Origin: Streptomyces sp. NP160
GTDB lineage: Bacteria; Actinomycetota; Actinomycetes; Actinomycetales; Quadrisphaeraceae
DNA: 64,000 nucleotides
Reading direction: 5' to 3'
Assembly: GCF_006335115.1 (NCBI RefSeq)
Contig: NZ_VDMJ01000037.1
Coordinates: forward strand, 1 to 64,000
Below, piece by piece: positions 8,083 to 55,011 of this stretch. The notes beneath the pieces were generated by a model that ran no database searches, was not told where the DNA came from, and saw nothing but the letters and a program-made list of their open reading frames with translations. Made by a program: the position numbers and the translations under genes. Numbering within the stretch: the stretch's first letter is position 1; the number at the start of each line of letters is the position of its first letter.

Positions 8083-8370
8083 CGCAGGTCACCTCCCCGT
8101 CCGCACCGCCCATCCTCTCCTTCGAGGATCGGCACGCGCCCACCCTGCCCGCACCGGGCTCGCCCGGAAGGGTGAACGCGCCGGTCGCTGCCGCCGGACT
8201 GCCAGCCGGGTCCCCGGAGCACCGCCGTAGCAATGCCGCAGCACCGCCGTCGGACCGCTGCCGGTGCCCGCGGGTATCGGCGTTCCGGCCCGCCGCCGAG
8301 CTGGTCGCGCCAGACTCGGGCCTGGGGCCGCTGTGGCGGATGGGCTCCACCGTGACGGGAGGGCAGAGGC

Positions 8371-10053
8371 GTGGGTGTGCTGGACCGGCTGATGAGGCAC
8401 GCCGACGGCGGGCGCCGTCGCTTCTCGCTCAGCGGCGCCGCCGCCGCGCGGTCCGGCTCGGTCGCCGGGCAGACGCCCGCGGGCGTGCCCGTGATGCCGC
8501 TGGCCCTGCGCGGCGCCGAGCTGGGCGCCCTGCGCGCCGCCGACGCTGCCGAGCACGCGGTCACCCTCCCGCTGTCGGTGGTGGCCGAGGTGGCCGCCCG
8601 CGCCGCAGGAGTCGTGCCCGACGCCCGCGGGTCCGTCCCGGTGACCAGCGGCCGTCCCGCCCACGAGCACGGGTACGCCGTCCTGGACGTGGTCACCAGC
8701 GGCCCCTCGCCCGAGCGCGACCGCGTGCTCGAGGTGGCCGTGGTCCAGCTGGACGCCGACGGCGCCGTGGTGGGGGAGTGGACCTCCCTGCTGCGCCCCT
8801 CGGTCACCTGCCCCGCTGCCGACCCCGCGGGGAGGACCGCTGACCCGGCCCTCGACCTGGGCGTCCTCGCGGCCGCGGCCGGGGCCTCGGTGGAGGAGCT
8901 CTCCGCCGCACCCACCCTCGCCGACGTCGCCGCGGAGCTGGTCACCGCGCTCGCGGGCCGCGTGCTGGTCGCGCACGGCGCGGCCTCCGACCTCGCCCAC
9001 CTGCGCGGGGAGCTGGCCGCGGTGGGCGTGGTGCTGCCGGTCGCCCCGGTGCTGTGCACCCTCGAGGCCAGCTGGCGGCACCTGCCCGGCCTGCACCGCC
9101 GCCGGCTCGTCGACTGCTGCCGCGCCGCCGGCGTGGCCCTGGACGGCGTGCCCACCGCCCTCACCGACGCACGCGCGGCCGCCGGTCTGCTGCAGCGCTA
9201 CCTGGCGCGCTCGGGCGAGCGCGGCGAGGCGCAGGCGGCCGTGGTGGCCCGCGCCGCCGCGACCGCGTGGCCGGAGGTGGAGGTGCCCCCGATGAGCACG
9301 GCCGCACCCCGCGCCGACGCGCAGCCGGCGCCGTCCCTGGCCGCGGCGCCCGGGCGCCTGGCTGTGGTGCTGGAGTCGCTGGCCCTCGACGGGCCCGACC
9401 TGCCGCTCCCGGCGGTGGCCGCCCACGTGGAGCTGCTCGCCGACGCCCTCGCCGCCGGTCCTCTCGACGACGACGCCGCCCGCACCCTGGCCCTGCTGGC
9501 AGACGCCGCCAACCTCACCCGCGCCCAGGTCCGCGCCGCCTCCCGCGGCGTGGTCATGGCCCTGGCGGGCGCCGTCGGCCGCGAGCCCACCGCGGGGGAG
9601 GCCGAGCGCGAGGAGCTGCTCACCGCCGCGCGGGTGCTGGCTGTGGACGTCGACGACGTCCTCGCCGCCCTCACCGCCGCCGCCGTCGCCACCGGCTCGA
9701 TGCCCCTGGTGCCCGGCGGGGCCGGCGGCCACGGCGGTCCCGGCGGTCGTGGGGCGTCCGCCGCTCCCGCCCCCGGCCCGCTGACCCAGGCGCTGGCCGC
9801 GGTGCGCGTGCCGTCGCCGCGACCGGAGCGGGTCTCCCGTCCCGCGGCCGAGCCGGTCGTCACGGCTGCCGTCGACGTCGACCTCACCGGCGCCGCGCTG
9901 GCACCGCTCGACCTGAGCGAGCCGTCGGCGCGCGCCGCCGTGCGCACGTGGGCGCGGGAGCGGGGCCTGGAGGTCAGCCCGCGCGGCAGGCTCCCGCGCG
10001 CCGTGGTGGAGGCCTTCGAGGCCGAGCGCGCCGGGCTGGTCAGCGCGCGCTGA
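8371..10053 (+). CDS. DnaQ-like exonuclease-fold protein fused to an Lsr2-like C-terminus
   Basis: A 560-residue protein. Residues about 100-280 align with DEDDh 3'-5' exonucleases: YAVLDVVTSG (Asp 106), LVAHGAASDLAHL (Asp 207) and ALTDARAAAGLL (Asp 266). The second acidic residue of the first motif, normally Glu in DVETTG, is Val 108, and the usual His before the last Asp is not evident, so catalysis is doubtful. Residues about 340-460 are helical and resemble a TerB-like region weakly. Residues 514-552 (SARAAVRTWARERGLEV then RGRLPRAVVEAF) match the Lsr2 DNA-binding domain. Likely a DNA-bound protein. GTG at 8371 follows GGGAGGG at a good distance. Confidence 0.8.
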   Translation: MGVLDRLMRHADGGRRRFSLSGAAAARSGSVAGQTPAGVPVMPLALRGAELGALRAADAAEHAVTLPLSVVAEVAARAAGVVPDARGSVPVTSGRPAHEHGYAVLDVVTSGPSPERDRVLEVAVVQLDADGAVVGEWTSLLRPSVTCPAADPAGRTADPALDLGVLAAAAGASVEELSAAPTLADVAAELVTALAGRVLVAHGAASDLAHLRGELAAVGVVLPVAPVLCTLEASWRHLPGLHRRRLVDCCRAAGVALDGVPTALTDARAAAGLLQRYLARSGERGEAQAAVVARAAATAWPEVEVPPMSTAAPRADAQPAPSLAAAPGRLAVVLESLALDGPDLPLPAVAAHVELLADALAAGPLDDDAARTLALLADAANLTRAQVRAASRGVVMALAGAVGREPTAGEAEREELLTAARVLAVDVDDVLAALTAAAVATGSMPLVPGGAGGHGGPGGRGASAAPAPGPLTQALAAVRVPSPRPERVSRPAAEPVVTAAVDVDLTGAALAPLDLSEPSARAAVRTWARERGLEVSPRGRLPRAVVEAFEAERAGLVSAR

Positions 10054-27804: not shown

Positions 27805-28176
27805 TCAGGTCCCGGTGGGGCGCTCGCGGGCCGGAGCCCCGGGGACCAGGTCCACCACGTGGTCGGCGCCGAAGATCTCCAGCGCGTGCAGCGGCTGCCC
27901 GCTGGCCCCGACCACCCGCACCCGGCGCGGCGCGACCAGGCGGGCGACCTGCACCAGCAGCCGCATGCCGGAGGAGTCCAGGAACGTGGTGTCCGTGAGG
28001 TCGACCTGCTCGACGTCACCCCACTGCGGCAGGTCGTGGAGCACGTCCTGCGTGACCGAGATGTCGACCTCGCCGCTGACCACCAGCGTGGTGGGGTCCG
28101 CGGCGTCGAGGTCGATGGTCCCCACGGGCCCGCCGACGGCGTCACCGCGCGCTGGTGCTGTCCCCACGCCCCCCAT
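27805..28176 (-). CDS. STAS-domain anti-sigma factor antagonist
   Basis: A 123-residue STAS protein. The core strand VVSGEVDISVTQDVLHDL and the phosphorylation loop FLDSSGMRLL (Ser 68/69) are present. Such antagonists bind an anti-sigma kinase when dephosphorylated and so free a sigma factor. No anti-sigma gene is adjacent, but an RsbW-like ATPase (39.5 kb) and two SpoIIE-type phosphatases (37.0 and 53.8 kb) are in this window. Ends are disordered. It is a single gene, divergent from the DUF1905 gene. Confidence 0.88.
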   Translation of the reverse strand: MGGVGTAPARGDAVGGPVGTIDLDAADPTTLVVSGEVDISVTQDVLHDLPQWGDVEQVDLTDTTFLDSSGMRLLVQVARLVAPRRVRVVGASGQPLHALEIFGADHVVDLVPGAPARERPTGT

Positions 28177-34331: not shown

Positions 34332-34519
34332 GCTCACAGCGGGCGGGAGGGCGCTGCCGGCGAGCAGGGCGACGACCGCCGCCTCCTGGCGGCAGGCGTC
34401 GCGGTGGCGGGGGACGGTTCAGCCGGACGGCGACCTCGGGCCCCCGCGTGCGCCCGCTGCGGCCTCAGGTGGAGCCGATGACCACCGCTGTGGGTACGCG
34501 ACGCCGGTACCGGACGAGC

Positions 34520-34598
34520 CGTCCCGACCAGCATGCAGAAGTCTGCCGGCGGGCGCCCAGCGGACGTCGCGGAGGAGTTCTGCATGTCGGTCGGGACG
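34520..34598. repeat. Intergenic inverted-repeat element, copy c
   Basis: A 79-base element with 21-base arms, 34520-34540 (starts CGTCCCGACCAGCATGCAG) and 34578-34598 (ends TCGGTCGGGACG), pairing at 19 of 21. The centre contains GGCGGGCGCCCAGCGG. In reverse orientation it aligns with copy d. It lies in the 394-base gap (34332-34725), which has no gene. Confidence 0.65.
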
Positions 34599-34617
34599 AC
34601 CCGGCTGGCTGAGCCGT

Positions 34618-37012: not shown

Positions 37013-39385
37013 TCAGCCCCCGGGCACCCAGCCGACGGCGAGGACGGTGGTGTCGTCGGCGCGGGCGGACACCGAGCGCATCAGCTGGTCGCACAGGGCG
37101 TCCAGCGATCCGGCGCTGCTGCTGGCCGTGGTGATCACGCGCTGCAGCCGCTCGGCCCACTCCGAGCGGCGCTCCTCCACGAGCCCGTCGGAGTACAGCA
37201 GCAGCGCACCGCCGGGCTCCAGCGCCACCTCCGCGGCAGTGTACTCGACCTCGTCGATCAGGCCGACCGCCGGTCCGCGCAGGCCGTCGTCGACGAGCTG
37301 CGCGGCGCCGTCCCCGGCGCGCACCACCAGCGGGGGGTGCCCGGCGTTGGCGACCCGCGCCCGTCCCGTGGCCGGGTCGACCACCACGACGACGGCGGTG
37401 GCGAGCTCACCGGTCAGCAGCCGGGTGACCAGCTCGTTGAGGCGCTCCAGCGCCTGCCCGGGGTCCCGCGTGGCCAGCACGTAGGCGCGCAGCGCGTTGC
37501 GCATCTGCGCGCTGATGGCCGACGCGGCCAGCCCGTGGCCGGCGACGTCGCCGAGCACCACCGCGGTGCAGCCGTCGGACAGCGGGACGATGTCGTACCA
37601 GTCCCCGCCGACCACGTCGTCGCTGTGGGGCACGTAGCGCACGGCGAGGTCGAGCCCGGGGACGTCGGGCAGCTTCTCCAGCAGCAGCGTCTGCTGCAGC
37701 GCCGTGGCGAGCCGGTTGGTCCGCTCCACCTCGCGCAGCATCGAGTCGGACAGGTGCTGGGCGAAGCCGAGGGCGGCCTCCACCTCGTGAGGGGCCCACG
37801 CCACGGCGGTCAGCCGCTTGGTCTCGCTCCACGCCTCGAAGGAGTGCCGCGGGCTCAGCCGCAGGCCCCCGCCGCCGTCGTCGTCGAGGACCACCTTGCT
37901 CGAGCGCGGGTCGCCGCCCCAGGTGACCTCCTGCAGCACCTCCGGGCGGAACCAGGCGACCAGGTCGCCCGGCTGGCCGCCGGACACGGGAGCGGCGAGC
38001 ACTCCGCTGGCCACCTCCCAGACCTCCCGGGCGTCGACCCCGCCGGCTGCTGCGACGTCACCGCCCGCGCCGCCCGCGCCGCCGGCGCCGACGACGCCGG
38101 GGGCCGCGGCGGCGAGCGACGAGGTCACCAGCGGCTCGTCGGACAGGAGCGCGGACAGGGCGGTGACCACCGACGGCGGCGGGGCGGCGCCCAGCAGGCG
38201 CAGCTCGCCGTGCACGCGCAGCGCGGCGCCGCCGCAGGGCACGAGGTCGGCGATGGTCACCGACTCCCGGGTCAGGGCCTCCAGCGGCAGGTCGGGGGTG
38301 GCGGCGAGCAGCTCGGTGAGCCGGGCGCGCACGCGCGCGGCGGCCACGACGTCCTGGTCGGCCTCGCGGCCCACCACCACCGGCAGCAGCAGCGAGGCCG
38401 TGCGGCCCAGGAACTCGGCGGCGGTGCGCACCGGGACGCTCGGGCGGTGGGGGCCGGCGTAGTGGTGGCAGGCGATTAGGCCCCACAGCCGGTCGCCGTG
38501 CATCAGGGAGATCGACATGGACGCCGCGACGCCCATGTTGCGCAGGTACTGCAGGTGGACGGGGGAGACGCTGCGCAGCACCGCCAGCGACAGGTCGAGC
38601 GGCGCCCCCGTCGGCTGCGCCGGCTCCAGCGGGACCGGGAGGTAGGTGGCGGTGGGGATGATCCGCAGCCACTGGCGGGCGTACAGCGCCCTGGCCTGCG
38701 CAGGGATGTCGGACGCGGGGTAGCGCAGCCCGAGGAAGGGCTCGAGGTCCTCGCGGCGGTCCTCGGCGAGCACCTCGCCGTTCCACTCCTCGTCGAAGCG
38801 GTAGACCATCACCCGGTCGAAGCCGGTCAGGTGCCTCACCCCGGTGGCCAGGCCCTCGGCGAGGTCCAGCACGCTGCCGGCGTCCTGCAGCCGGCGCAGC
38901 ACGGTCGGGAGCTGCAGGTGCCAGGGCCTCGCGGACCCCTCGTCACCGGCGGCCGGCTCGAGCTCGAGGACGACCACGGCGGCTGCGCCGGCCTGGTCGG
39001 GGACCCGGTGGGCGACCGCGTGGTGGCGGCGGCCGGACCCGGGCGGCAGCTCCACGGGCTCGGTGGTGGTGGCCTGGTCGTCCTCACCAGCGGCCACGGC
39101 CGCCACGAGGGACGCGAGCTGGGGCGACAGGTCCGGCAGGCGCGCACCGGCCGCGGCTGCCGGGCCGAGGGCGGCCGCGGAGCCCGCGGACGCCGACAGC
39201 ACCGGGAGGCCCGCGGAGGCGGAGCCCACCACCAGCAGGTGGCCGTGCGGCTGCACGGACCCCGGCACGCGGATCGGCTCGTCGGCGCAGGCGGCCGCTG
39301 CGGCGGCCAGCGCGGCGTCGCCGTCGAACGGGTCCACCGACGGGGGCGGCGCTGCGGCGGTGGACGAGGGCCGCGAGGGTTGCAC
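37013..39385 (-). CDS. Bacteriophytochrome with C-terminal PP2C (SpoIIE) phosphatase
   Basis: A 790-residue photoreceptor. PAS-like start with the chromophore-attachment Cys 33 before DEPIRVPGSVQPHGHLL; GAF domain with RYPASDIPAQAR (Asp 226), LRNMGVAASMSISL and WGLIACHHY (His 308); PHY tongue motif PRHSFEAWSE. The last 200 residues are a SpoIIE phosphatase: GGDWYDIVPL at 593, GDVAGHGLAAS, NAGHPPL and LLYSDGLVE, with the metal-binding Asp residues in place. Red/far-red light sensed through biliverdin probably sets phosphatase activity on a STAS antagonist. It is divergent from an anti-sigma-type ATPase gene. No heme oxygenase is in the window. Confidence 0.93.
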   Translation of the reverse strand: MQPSRPSSTAAAPPPSVDPFDGDAALAAAAAACADEPIRVPGSVQPHGHLLVVGSASAGLPVLSASAGSAAALGPAAAAGARLPDLSPQLASLVAAVAAGEDDQATTTEPVELPPGSGRRHHAVAHRVPDQAGAAAVVVLELEPAAGDEGSARPWHLQLPTVLRRLQDAGSVLDLAEGLATGVRHLTGFDRVMVYRFDEEWNGEVLAEDRREDLEPFLGLRYPASDIPAQARALYARQWLRIIPTATYLPVPLEPAQPTGAPLDLSLAVLRSVSPVHLQYLRNMGVAASMSISLMHGDRLWGLIACHHYAGPHRPSVPVRTAAEFLGRTASLLLPVVVGREADQDVVAAARVRARLTELLAATPDLPLEALTRESVTIADLVPCGGAALRVHGELRLLGAAPPPSVVTALSALLSDEPLVTSSLAAAAPGVVGAGGAGGAGGDVAAAGGVDAREVWEVASGVLAAPVSGGQPGDLVAWFRPEVLQEVTWGGDPRSSKVVLDDDGGGGLRLSPRHSFEAWSETKRLTAVAWAPHEVEAALGFAQHLSDSMLREVERTNRLATALQQTLLLEKLPDVPGLDLAVRYVPHSDDVVGGDWYDIVPLSDGCTAVVLGDVAGHGLAASAISAQMRNALRAYVLATRDPGQALERLNELVTRLLTGELATAVVVVVDPATGRARVANAGHPPLVVRAGDGAAQLVDDGLRGPAVGLIDEVEYTAAEVALEPGGALLLYSDGLVEERRSEWAERLQRVITTASSSAGSLDALCDQLMRSVSARADDTTVLAVGWVPGG

Positions 39386-39541
39386 GGAGCTCCAGCTGTC
39401 GAGGGCGGGTCGTGCGAAGAGGGTCTCCGTCAGGTCACGATGAGGACCGGGGACGGATCACCACGTGTGCGCTCGGCCGTCGCGGGTAGGTCCGTGCCAT
39501 CATCGCACCGCTGCTGCGCCACCCGCCGACTTGGAGGTCCC

Positions 39542-40012
39542 GTGCACCTCAGCTACGGGCTCCGGCTCCCCACGGACGTGCGCCACGTCCCGGTGGTCCG
39601 GCACCTGGCCACCGCCACGCTCACCGAGCTGGGGGTGAGCCCGTCGAGCATCGACGACATCGCCCTCGCCGTGACCGAGGCCTGCAGCAACGTGGTCCAG
39701 CACGCGGGCTCCGGGGCGGACTTCGAGGTCCGCGTCAGCGTGGAGGGCGAGTGGTGCCGCATCGAGGTGGTCGACGGCGGCGGCGGGTTCGACCCGGCGC
39801 GCGCGGCCGCCGAGGTGCTCGCCGAGGGGCCCAGCAGCGACCTCACGCACGGCCGGGGCCTGGGGCTCATGCGCATCCTCGTGGACCAGCTGCACTTCGT
39901 TCCGGGGGAGAGCGGCACCACGGTGGTGCTGGTCAAGCACCTGCAGCTGCTGCCCGGGTCGGTGCTGGCGGCGGCGCTCCGGATGGGGCAGGACGCGCGA
40001 GAGGGCGCCTGA
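39542..40012 (+). CDS. Anti-sigma-factor-type ATPase (RsbW-like GHKL)
   Basis: A 156-residue serine-kinase-fold ATPase. The N box is VTEACSNVVQHAG, G1 VVDGGGGFDP and G2 GRGLGLMRILVD, all in family order. RsbW-like proteins bind a sigma factor or phosphorylate a STAS antagonist. GTG at 39542 follows GGAGG at five bases. It is divergent from the phytochrome-phosphatase gene, 156 bases away. Its own sigma factor is not in the window. The tail, about 25 residues past G2, is short and helical. Confidence 0.9.
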   Translation: MHLSYGLRLPTDVRHVPVVRHLATATLTELGVSPSSIDDIALAVTEACSNVVQHAGSGADFEVRVSVEGEWCRIEVVDGGGGFDPARAAAEVLAEGPSSDLTHGRGLGLMRILVDQLHFVPGESGTTVVLVKHLQLLPGSVLAAALRMGQDAREGA

Positions 40013-53808: not shown

Positions 53809-55011
53809 TCAGGTGGTGCGGACGGCGAGCACGGCGACGTCGTCGTCGCGGTGGCCGTGCAGCAGGTCGGGCAGGAGGGTGTCGAGGAGGTCGTCCAGGT
53901 CGCGGTGGCCCTCGCGCTCCAGCTCGGCCAGCAGCGCCGCGGTGCCCTGCTCCAGGTCCGCCTCGCGCCGCTCCACGAGCCCGTCGGTGTGCAGCAGCAG
54001 GGTCGCGCCGGGCGGGAGGGTGCAGCGGTGGTCCCGGCGGGCGGACCCGGGCAGCACGCCCACCATGAGGTCAGGCCCGCTCGCCCCACCGGTGGCGGGC
54101 ACCACGGACGCGTGGACGTGCCCGCCGGGACCGGTCCGCAGCAGCACCGGGTGCGGGTGGCCGGCGCTGCTCCACACCAGGCGCCGCGGCCCGCCGGGCA
54201 GCTCGGGCGGGTCCAGGCGCGCCACCAGCACGGTCGCCATGACGTCCAGGCCCAGCCGGTCCAGGGCCGTCTCGGTGCGGGCGACCAGCGCCGACGGCTC
54301 CTGCCCGCCCTCCACGGCGTAGGCGCGCAGCACCGCGCGGACCTGGCCCATGGCGGCGGCGGCGCGGATGTCGTGGCCCATGACGTCACCGATGACCAGC
54401 GTCGTGGCCCCCGAGGGGTCGACGAGGGCGTCGTACCAGTCACCGCCCACCTGGTCCCCGGAGCTGGCCGGGGTGTACCGGGCGACCAGCTGCAGGCCCT
54501 GCGGCTGCGGCAGGTGCGTGAGCATGGCGGACTGCAGCGTGCGGGCGGCCTGGCGGCGGTCCTGCAGCTGCGCCAGGTGCGAGCGGCGCACGCCCGCCAC
54601 CGTCGCCGCCACCGCGGTGGAGGTCCCCACCACGGCGCAGCTGATGAGCGTGGTGAGCGGCGGGGTGCCGTCGAGGACGCACGTCCACAGCGCGACCAGC
54701 ACCGACATCGCCCCGACCAGCGCCACGTGCCAGCGGGCGCCGCCGATGGCCGTCAGCGTGGGCGCCAGCGCGAACGCGCCGGCGATGTTGGCCGCGCCGG
54801 GGTCGCCGCTGACCTCACCCGAGACCAGGTCGGTGACGGCCAGCCCGACCACGGCGGCCACGCCCAGCCACAGCCAGCGGCGGGTCGGCCTCAGCAGGAC
54901 GTGGTCGTCCCCGACGGCACCGGCGGGCGGAACGACGAGAGCCGCGCCGCCCCGTCCGTCCCTCCGTCCGTCCCCCCGTCCGTCCCCGTCCACGGGCCCA
55001 GCGTGCCGCAC
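53809..55011 (-). CDS. Membrane SpoIIE-type PP2C phosphatase
   Basis: A 400-residue protein. About four hydrophobic helices at residues 45-165 (WLWLGVAAVVGLAV, TTLISCAVVGTSTAVAATVA) anchor it. A short coiled linker (HLAQLQDRRQAARTLQSAML) leads to the SpoIIE phosphatase: VGGDWYDALVDPSGATTLVI, GDVMGHDIRA, SSAGHPHPVLL, LLLHTDGLVE. It would dephosphorylate a STAS protein in a partner switch. The N-terminal tail DGDGRGDGRRDGRGG is coded by a GTCC-rich short tandem repeat (54952-54990). GTG at 55011 or 54993. Confidence 0.9.
   Translation of the reverse strand: MRHAGPVDGDGRGDGRRDGRGGAALVVPPAGAVGDDHVLLRPTRRWLWLGVAAVVGLAVTDLVSGEVSGDPGAANIAGAFALAPTLTAIGGARWHVALVGAMSVLVALWTCVLDGTPPLTTLISCAVVGTSTAVAATVAGVRRSHLAQLQDRRQAARTLQSAMLTHLPQPQGLQLVARYTPASSGDQVGGDWYDALVDPSGATTLVIGDVMGHDIRAAAAMGQVRAVLRAYAVEGGQEPSALVARTETALDRLGLDVMATVLVARLDPPELPGGPRRLVWSSAGHPHPVLLRTGPGGHVHASVVPATGGASGPDLMVGVLPGSARRDHRCTLPPGATLLLHTDGLVERREADLEQGTAALLAELEREGHRDLDDLLDTLLPDLLHGHRDDDVAVLAVRTT
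54952..54990. repeat. GTCC short tandem repeat at a gene start
   Basis: CCGTCCGTC, CTCCGTCCGTC and CCCCGTCCGTCCC follow each other, about eight near-perfect GTCC/CGTC units, near the 5' end of the SpoIIE-type phosphatase gene. Gain or loss of one four-base unit would shift the frame if the real start is the upstream GTG. Confidence 0.5.

Follow-up and report, generated by a model that had tools for sequence, protein, structure and literature searches.

A divergent gene pair, encoding a bacteriophytochrome-phosphatase and an RsbW-like ATPase, was analysed at positions 37,013 to 40,012 of a 64,000-nucleotide stretch of contig NZ_VDMJ01000037.1 (hereafter the window) from the soil bacterium Streptomyces sp. 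NP160. We read this pair, with a probability of roughly 0.6, as the remnant of a three-gene red/far-red partner switch that lost its own STAS gene and now relies on a STAS protein in trans. The source genome (G000; 4.77 Mb in 186 contigs) is treated here as a member of the genus Quadrisphaera. An earlier note had described a photosensor fused to a SpoIIE phosphatase and, 156 bases away in the opposite direction, an RsbW-like ATPase, with neither a STAS nor a sigma gene beside them. Pfam indeed matched PAS_2, GAF, PHY and SpoIIE within 37013..39385, the gap (39386..39541) measures 156 bp and holds no STAS gene, and no sigma match was obtained on the contig. The observation, a partner switch with a conserved red-light input, stands, and its parts are of known kinds.

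The loss of the STAS gene became visible from the gene order in relatives. The divergent pair was found in six of the seven orthologous loci of the family, five of them from Quadrisphaera and one from another genus (G003), while the contig of the seventh, a sixth Quadrisphaera (G012), begins inside the gene; a search for conserved divergence in related genomes, as suggested in the earlier note, thus gave a positive answer. G003 shares much of the surrounding gene order with Quadrisphaera, and its gap contains a STAS gene that overlaps the phytochrome gene, stop and start codon being joined in GTGA. The same order, kinase< STAS> phytochrome-phosphatase>, was observed in six loci of a Geodermatophilaceae clade (two Blastococcus, three Geodermatophilus and one other), where the STAS stop lies 10-12 nucleotides (nt) before the phytochrome start. 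Start codons of STAS and phytochrome genes in these relatives were assigned within this analysis, and Pfam confirmed the STAS domain in both scanned loci (L079 and L037) of the seven that carry it. This STAS gene is absent from the gap of all five intact Quadrisphaera loci, where the module is hence incomplete. The distance from the first conserved phytochrome residues to ATPase codon 10 is 224-352 nt in the five Quadrisphaera loci versus 509-560 nt in the STAS loci. A STAS gene hidden in the Quadrisphaera gap was also considered and rejected, as the frames read there contain none.

The tree unites Quadrisphaera, G003, the Geodermatophilaceae clade and four Cellulomonadaceae loci, the latter without a STAS or ATPase gene nearby, in one clade (support 100), within which Quadrisphaera and G003 are sisters (support 100). 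The branching order of Quadrisphaera plus G003, the Geodermatophilaceae clade and the four Cellulomonadaceae loci is not fixed by the tree, and FastTree gave a long-branch warning among the kinase-type rows. In the simplest history, the STAS gene would have occupied the gap before the split of Quadrisphaera and G003 and would then have been lost in Quadrisphaera; the alternative is two STAS insertions at one place.

The fusion gene (37013..39385, minus strand, as for all its features below) encodes 790 amino acids from a GTG start. Pfam placed PAS_2 at residues 33-145 (38951..39289), GAF at residues 174-327 (38405..38866) and PHY at residues 353-552 (37730..38329), which gives a complete PAS-GAF-PHY photosensory core, and the best solved relatives, by sequence and by fold, are bacteriophytochromes. 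As for the NCBIfam BphP equivalog NF041576, the match of 274.7 bits over residues 30-540 stays below the curated value of 1040. Residues C33 (codon 39287..39289), D226-I227-P228, H277, H307 and P512-R513-S515-F516 are invariant in all 46 rows of alignment A2. We take C33 to be the biliverdin attachment site, and we likewise assume that a cysteine before PAS, the DIP motif, the GAF histidine and the PRxSF of the tongue are hallmarks of biliverdin phytochromes. A2 received 45 of the 52 listed references; L103, L110, L115, L117, L121, L122 and L124 were left out as near-duplicates, and L075 (cut), L091 (containing X), L126 and L134 (motif not found in both) had been dropped beforehand. Judged by these residues, the fusion probably binds a bilin and responds to red/far-red light. 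When the sensor was used as a query in 13 family genomes, it matched strongly in seven (six Quadrisphaera and G003), and three further genomes matched weakly, at the SpoIIE end only. A heme oxygenase elsewhere in the genome, which the earlier note had proposed to look for, was present in six of the seven phytochrome carriers and in none of the six non-carriers, a pattern that does not represent 13 independent events because the genomes are related. The enzyme of G000 is encoded at G000:C57:154720-155316 (164 bits).

The output of the fusion is a SpoIIE/PPM phosphatase domain (residues 603-786; 37028..37579; 160 bits). D595, D613, D733, D777 and D778, which include the expected metal-binding aspartates of a PPM domain, are invariant in A2; a phosphatase activity is predicted from this conservation. 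From W519 in the tongue to D595 in the phosphatase, 76 residues were counted in 112 of the 114 fusion open reading frames and 75 in the other two, which, by eye, differ just before GGDW rather than within the helix. The 114 frames include second copies from the same genome, and 106 sensor sequences are distinct. Within this stretch, the predicted structure (mean predicted local distance difference test score 87.5) contains a single helix at residues 532-567 (37685..37792) that runs from PHY into the phosphatase. One branch of the tree splits the 106 distinct fusions from 24 phytochromes without SpoIIE, so that the sampled Actinomycetota fusions form one clade on their sequences. A coiled-coil mechanical read-out has been proposed for PPM phosphatases in the available passages of PMC12143880, and a single old fusion with a near-constant linker fits such a read-out.

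The ATPase gene (39542..40012, plus strand) encodes 156 amino acids from a GTG start at 39542, picked from the position of a likely Shine-Dalgarno sequence, GGAGG (39533..39537, plus strand). Of the 42 HATPase_c_2 matches in G000, its own scores highest (90.8 bits). The protein has a GHKL fold with N, G1 and G2 boxes, matches RsbW, SpoIIAB and UsfX both by sequence and by fold, and retains E46, N50, D78, G80, G82 and G104-L107, which are invariant in six sequences; these features suggest a kinase that acts on a STAS protein. The ratio of non-synonymous to synonymous substitution rates (dN/dS) in the closest pairs was 0.10-0.14 for the ATPase and 0.22-0.24 for the fusion, which indicates purifying selection on both genes. 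Closest pairs alone were used, since a G+C content of ~97% at third codon positions depresses dS and distant pairs reached up to 0.70 (ATPase versus G003).

Phytochrome-SpoIIE fusions are spread well beyond this family. A genome scan gave 80 loci among the matches listed, comprising 56 actinobacterial fusions and 24 loci without SpoIIE that end in a histidine-kinase-type ATPase. At the order level, the sensor matched in 58 of 396 genomes, and all 23 loci retrieved from outside the family were fused to SpoIIE; at the class level, it matched in 39 of 394. For the 43 named fusion loci whose flanks are complete, 33 STAS/ATPase matches lie within 1.5 kb and 12 beyond, corresponding to densities of 0.256 versus 0.022 per kb, and these matches are not independent, several coming from Cellulosimicrobium and Geodermatophilaceae loci. 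Because the scan covered no more than 1.5 kb of flank on top of the matched part, neighbour counts are a lower bound. With hand-set labels, the presence of such a neighbour changes state at least 11 times on the tree; the automatic count adds L111 to these labels. Linkage of the fusions to STAS or ATPase genes is recurrent, though not usual. Besides kinase< STAS> phy>, where phy is the phytochrome-phosphatase, the arrangements phy> kinase< STAS<, phy> STAS< kinase<, phy> STAS> kinase> and kinase> STAS< phy> were seen. Such varied orders at L093, L202, L208 and L109, which include Mycobacterium asiaticum and Nocardioides, look as if the trio had been assembled more than once.

A mechanism for the remnant switch may be proposed as follows. 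The biliverdin-type PAS-GAF-PHY sensor would act via a single helix of constant length on an RsbU-type PPM phosphatase, which in turn would strip the phosphate from a STAS protein. Once unphosphorylated, the STAS protein would bind the RsbW-like kinase and free its client, most likely a sigma factor. The ancestral STAS gene would have stood between the kinase and phytochrome genes, coupled to the latter. After its loss in Quadrisphaera, phosphatase and kinase would meet on a STAS protein encoded elsewhere; because the module STAS is gone, they would have to share such a protein in trans, and the light signal probably reaches gene control via another protein in these bacteria. We infer the direction of the light effect, the STAS protein in trans, the phosphatase substrate and the sigma-factor client. 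A broader proposal, which we regard as tentative and somewhat doubtful, describes the fusions as an old red-light RsbU class of single origin in Actinomycetota whose transmission helix has a fixed length; Quadrisphaera would have shed its private STAS and connected this light input in trans to a shared RsbV of the general stress response. If true, a non-photosynthetic bacterium would use red/far-red light to set a sigma programme for stress.

Several observations weigh against the remnant switch. The Quadrisphaera locus itself has no STAS gene, and the partner in trans is a candidate only. Neither STAS nor ATPase gene lies within 1.5 kb in 75 of the 114 fusion loci, many of which have short flanks, and the ATPases beside other fusions partly belong to another subtype without the G1 motif, those of the Cellulosimicrobium loci, for example, lacking DxGxG. 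The Quadrisphaera ATPase reached only 55.1, 45.4 and 38 bits against the NCBIfam RsbW/SpoIIAB equivalog cut-offs of 145, 155.05 and 135, for which reason we use the name "RsbW-like". None of the five Sigma70_r3 matches of G000 is on this contig, and two SigB/F-like sigma queries matched nothing in the actinobacterial loci and only one cyanobacterial locus. The constant linker may merely reflect one ancestral fusion. Finally, G011 (91% complete) carries the phytochrome without any heme oxygenase match.

Candidates for the STAS partner were ranked with A4, a profile of seven module STAS proteins. G003, a training member, scored 152 bits as expected; in the six Quadrisphaera genomes, scores did not exceed 51.6 bits, and a convincing orthologue of the module STAS was not found with this profile. 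The best Quadrisphaera matches align to identical positions of the profile and seem to represent a single gene, whose copy on G000:C35 adjoins a HATPase_c_2 gene; five of the six phytochrome-free family genomes likewise have matches, of 48-59 bits. The RsbV-like protein at G000:C35:48243-48563 may serve as the first candidate partner.

A different partner was implied by the earlier note, which had pointed to a STAS gene (27805..28176, minus strand) and a second SpoIIE phosphatase gene (53809..55011, minus strand; 134 bits) within the same 64 kb. Both genes exist, and the SpoIIE gene shows no sign of module membership. Such co-location is weak evidence alone because G000 has 22 SpoIIE and 20 STAS matches besides its 42 HATPase_c_2 matches (26 over the cut-off, some of those histidine kinases), while it has one PHY domain. 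That this STAS protein is the cognate antagonist of kinase and phosphatase, and that the set directly controls a sigma factor, seems quite improbable to us. This genuine STAS gene encodes a DSSG motif, lies 8.8 kb away and has orthologues in five of the six Quadrisphaera genomes, in four of them, G000 included, on the same contig as the phytochrome; however, a common contig can be plain synteny. Its PF01740 match is weak (27.3 bits; cut-off 22.6), and it falls below the TIGR00377 cut-off (24.9 versus 53.45 bits). With A4 it ranks ninth of the 15 STAS matches in its own genome, and its nearest STAS proteins beyond its own orthologues belong to another group within Quadrisphaera. The idea of a displaced module STAS, to which it is not orthologous, was examined by pairwise comparison, best hits and profile, all of which spoke against it. 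Co-inheritance with the pair fails as well, since G008 lacks the gene between the same flanking genes and keeps both phytochrome and ATPase. The gene also evolves faster, with a closest-pair dN/dS of 0.33-0.39 versus 0.10-0.14 for the ATPase. As the cognate partner it is therefore not upheld, and it could be a partner of the module all the same. At its place in G008 (L240, ~8276-8643), we noticed no STAS frame and, by eye, an inverted repeat.

Phosphatase and kinase might also be neighbours by inheritance only, with the phosphatase serving one STAS protein after the loss and the kinase another pathway. The missing STAS in the locus and the many STAS and SpoIIE matches of G000 would allow this, and kinase and phosphatase specificity can evolve independently according to the available passages on B. 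subtilis phosphatases (PMC11418112). Nevertheless, in each of the five intact Quadrisphaera loci the two genes are adjacent and evolve under purifying selection, a conserved element sits between them, and we consider such mere neighbourhood unlikely. The absence of a STAS gene would also suit a phosphatase that acts on a non-STAS target beside an ATPase that is no longer a STAS kinase. Three loops of the PPM domain select the STAS substrate in B. subtilis (PMC11418112, passages available), and the alpha3/4 docking loop, in a rough mapping from the predicted structure, differs strongly between Quadrisphaera and the STAS-keeping relatives (identity 0.11 and 0.03). However, this loop is variable within the relatives too (0.31), the alpha2/beta4 loop is conserved (0.74-0.80), and the ATPase retains E46, N50, D78, G80 and G82; a non-STAS target seems very improbable to us. 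A relaxation of the docking loops in Quadrisphaera after the STAS loss was considered as well, and no clear signal was seen with loops mapped this roughly.

Regarding the client of the remnant switch, control of a sigma factor would be expected from the family to which the module belongs. Direct light control of a sigma factor had been suggested in the earlier note; the partner-switch part of this idea gained from the conserved neighbourhood, the STAS gene in the relatives' gap, the accompanying heme oxygenase and the RsbW-like fold, and the link to a sigma factor is not upheld in that form. No sigma gene was found near the module, either by the Sigma70_r3 search of the contig or by sigma queries against the flanks. 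Many known partner-switch modules also have no sigma gene nearby. The genes of both SigB/F-like query proteins are candidates in trans: one on C126, immediately behind a gene whose HATPase_c_2 match is borderline, and one on C132, on the strand of a GAF/PAS-SpoIIE gene and ~1.7 kb behind it.

The gap in which G003 and the Geodermatophilaceae clade carry STAS holds a conserved element, GTGCCATCATCGCACC / GTGYCATCATCGCACC, at 39494..39509 (plus strand), 32 bp upstream of the ATPase start. Each of the six family genomes whose gap is intact has a single exact copy of GTGYCATCATCGCACC, and allowing one mismatch added one further site (G011). None was found in G012, whose contig is cut, or in the six phytochrome-free family genomes, and the reversed control pattern gave zero sites in the family genomes. 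The element is missing from the Geodermatophilaceae gaps. Two genera thus share it in front of the ATPase gene, elsewhere in the 13 family genomes it hardly occurs, and it could be a promoter or operator. A SigB-type promoter, judged by eye against the general consensus, was seen in four of five Quadrisphaera gaps and not in G011 or G003, and is not claimed.

Phytochromes with SpoIIE/PPM output appear in a distance tree in the literature (PMC9587094, Fig. 2 legend) and share the sensor and output domains of the Quadrisphaera fusion; unlike here, the available passages give no partner-switch neighbours, linker analysis or function for this group. The PadC diguanylate cyclases in the same passages also connect PAS-GAF-PHY to the output through a helical linker, whereas their output is GGDEF and their linkers have several lengths, compared with one length in 112 of 114 frames here. 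RsbU-RsbV-RsbW-SigB and SpoIIE-SpoIIAA-SpoIIAB-SigF combine a PPM phosphatase, a STAS protein and a kinase as the Geodermatophilaceae form does (PMC11418112 and PMC12143880, in part), and the fold of their RsbW and SpoIIAB is matched by the Quadrisphaera ATPase. In contrast to these switches, a phytochrome provides the input here, the STAS gene is missing in Quadrisphaera, and a nearby sigma gene was not found. Cyanobacterial HltA, needed for high-light tolerance, similarly joins GAF and SpoIIE with a link to light, yet it has a single GAF without PAS-PHY, and no partner-switch genes appear in the passages available (PMC9430166). For the Saccharothrix photocobilin, network analysis predicts contact with STAS, SpoIIE and sigma-linked phosphatases; in the passage available, this B12/bilin receptor is not fused to SpoIIE and the contact is a prediction only (PMC10979010). 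A phytochrome-phosphatase tied to a partner switch was not found among the open-access papers listed (bioRxiv preprints and most subscription papers were outside the scope), nor were the recurrent linkage and the adaptor loss in Quadrisphaera found in print there.

With kinase, STAS and photosensor-phosphatase in ~3 kb, the Geodermatophilaceae form offers a compact test system for the path from light to a PPM phosphatase. Quadrisphaera, in turn, represents a natural adaptor deletion in which one may study how a partner switch rewires once the commonly recognised protein is gone.

Some minor observations were made in addition. SpoIIE and HATPase_c_2 matches share one frame on C110 (1261 amino acids) and on C100 (593 amino acids) of G000, and these shared frames, together with the SpoIIE count, make up a large partner-switch repertoire. 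At 34510-34608 of the window, an apparently noncoding 39-nt inverted repeat with 21 nt between its arms and 77% complementarity is possibly a dispersed element.

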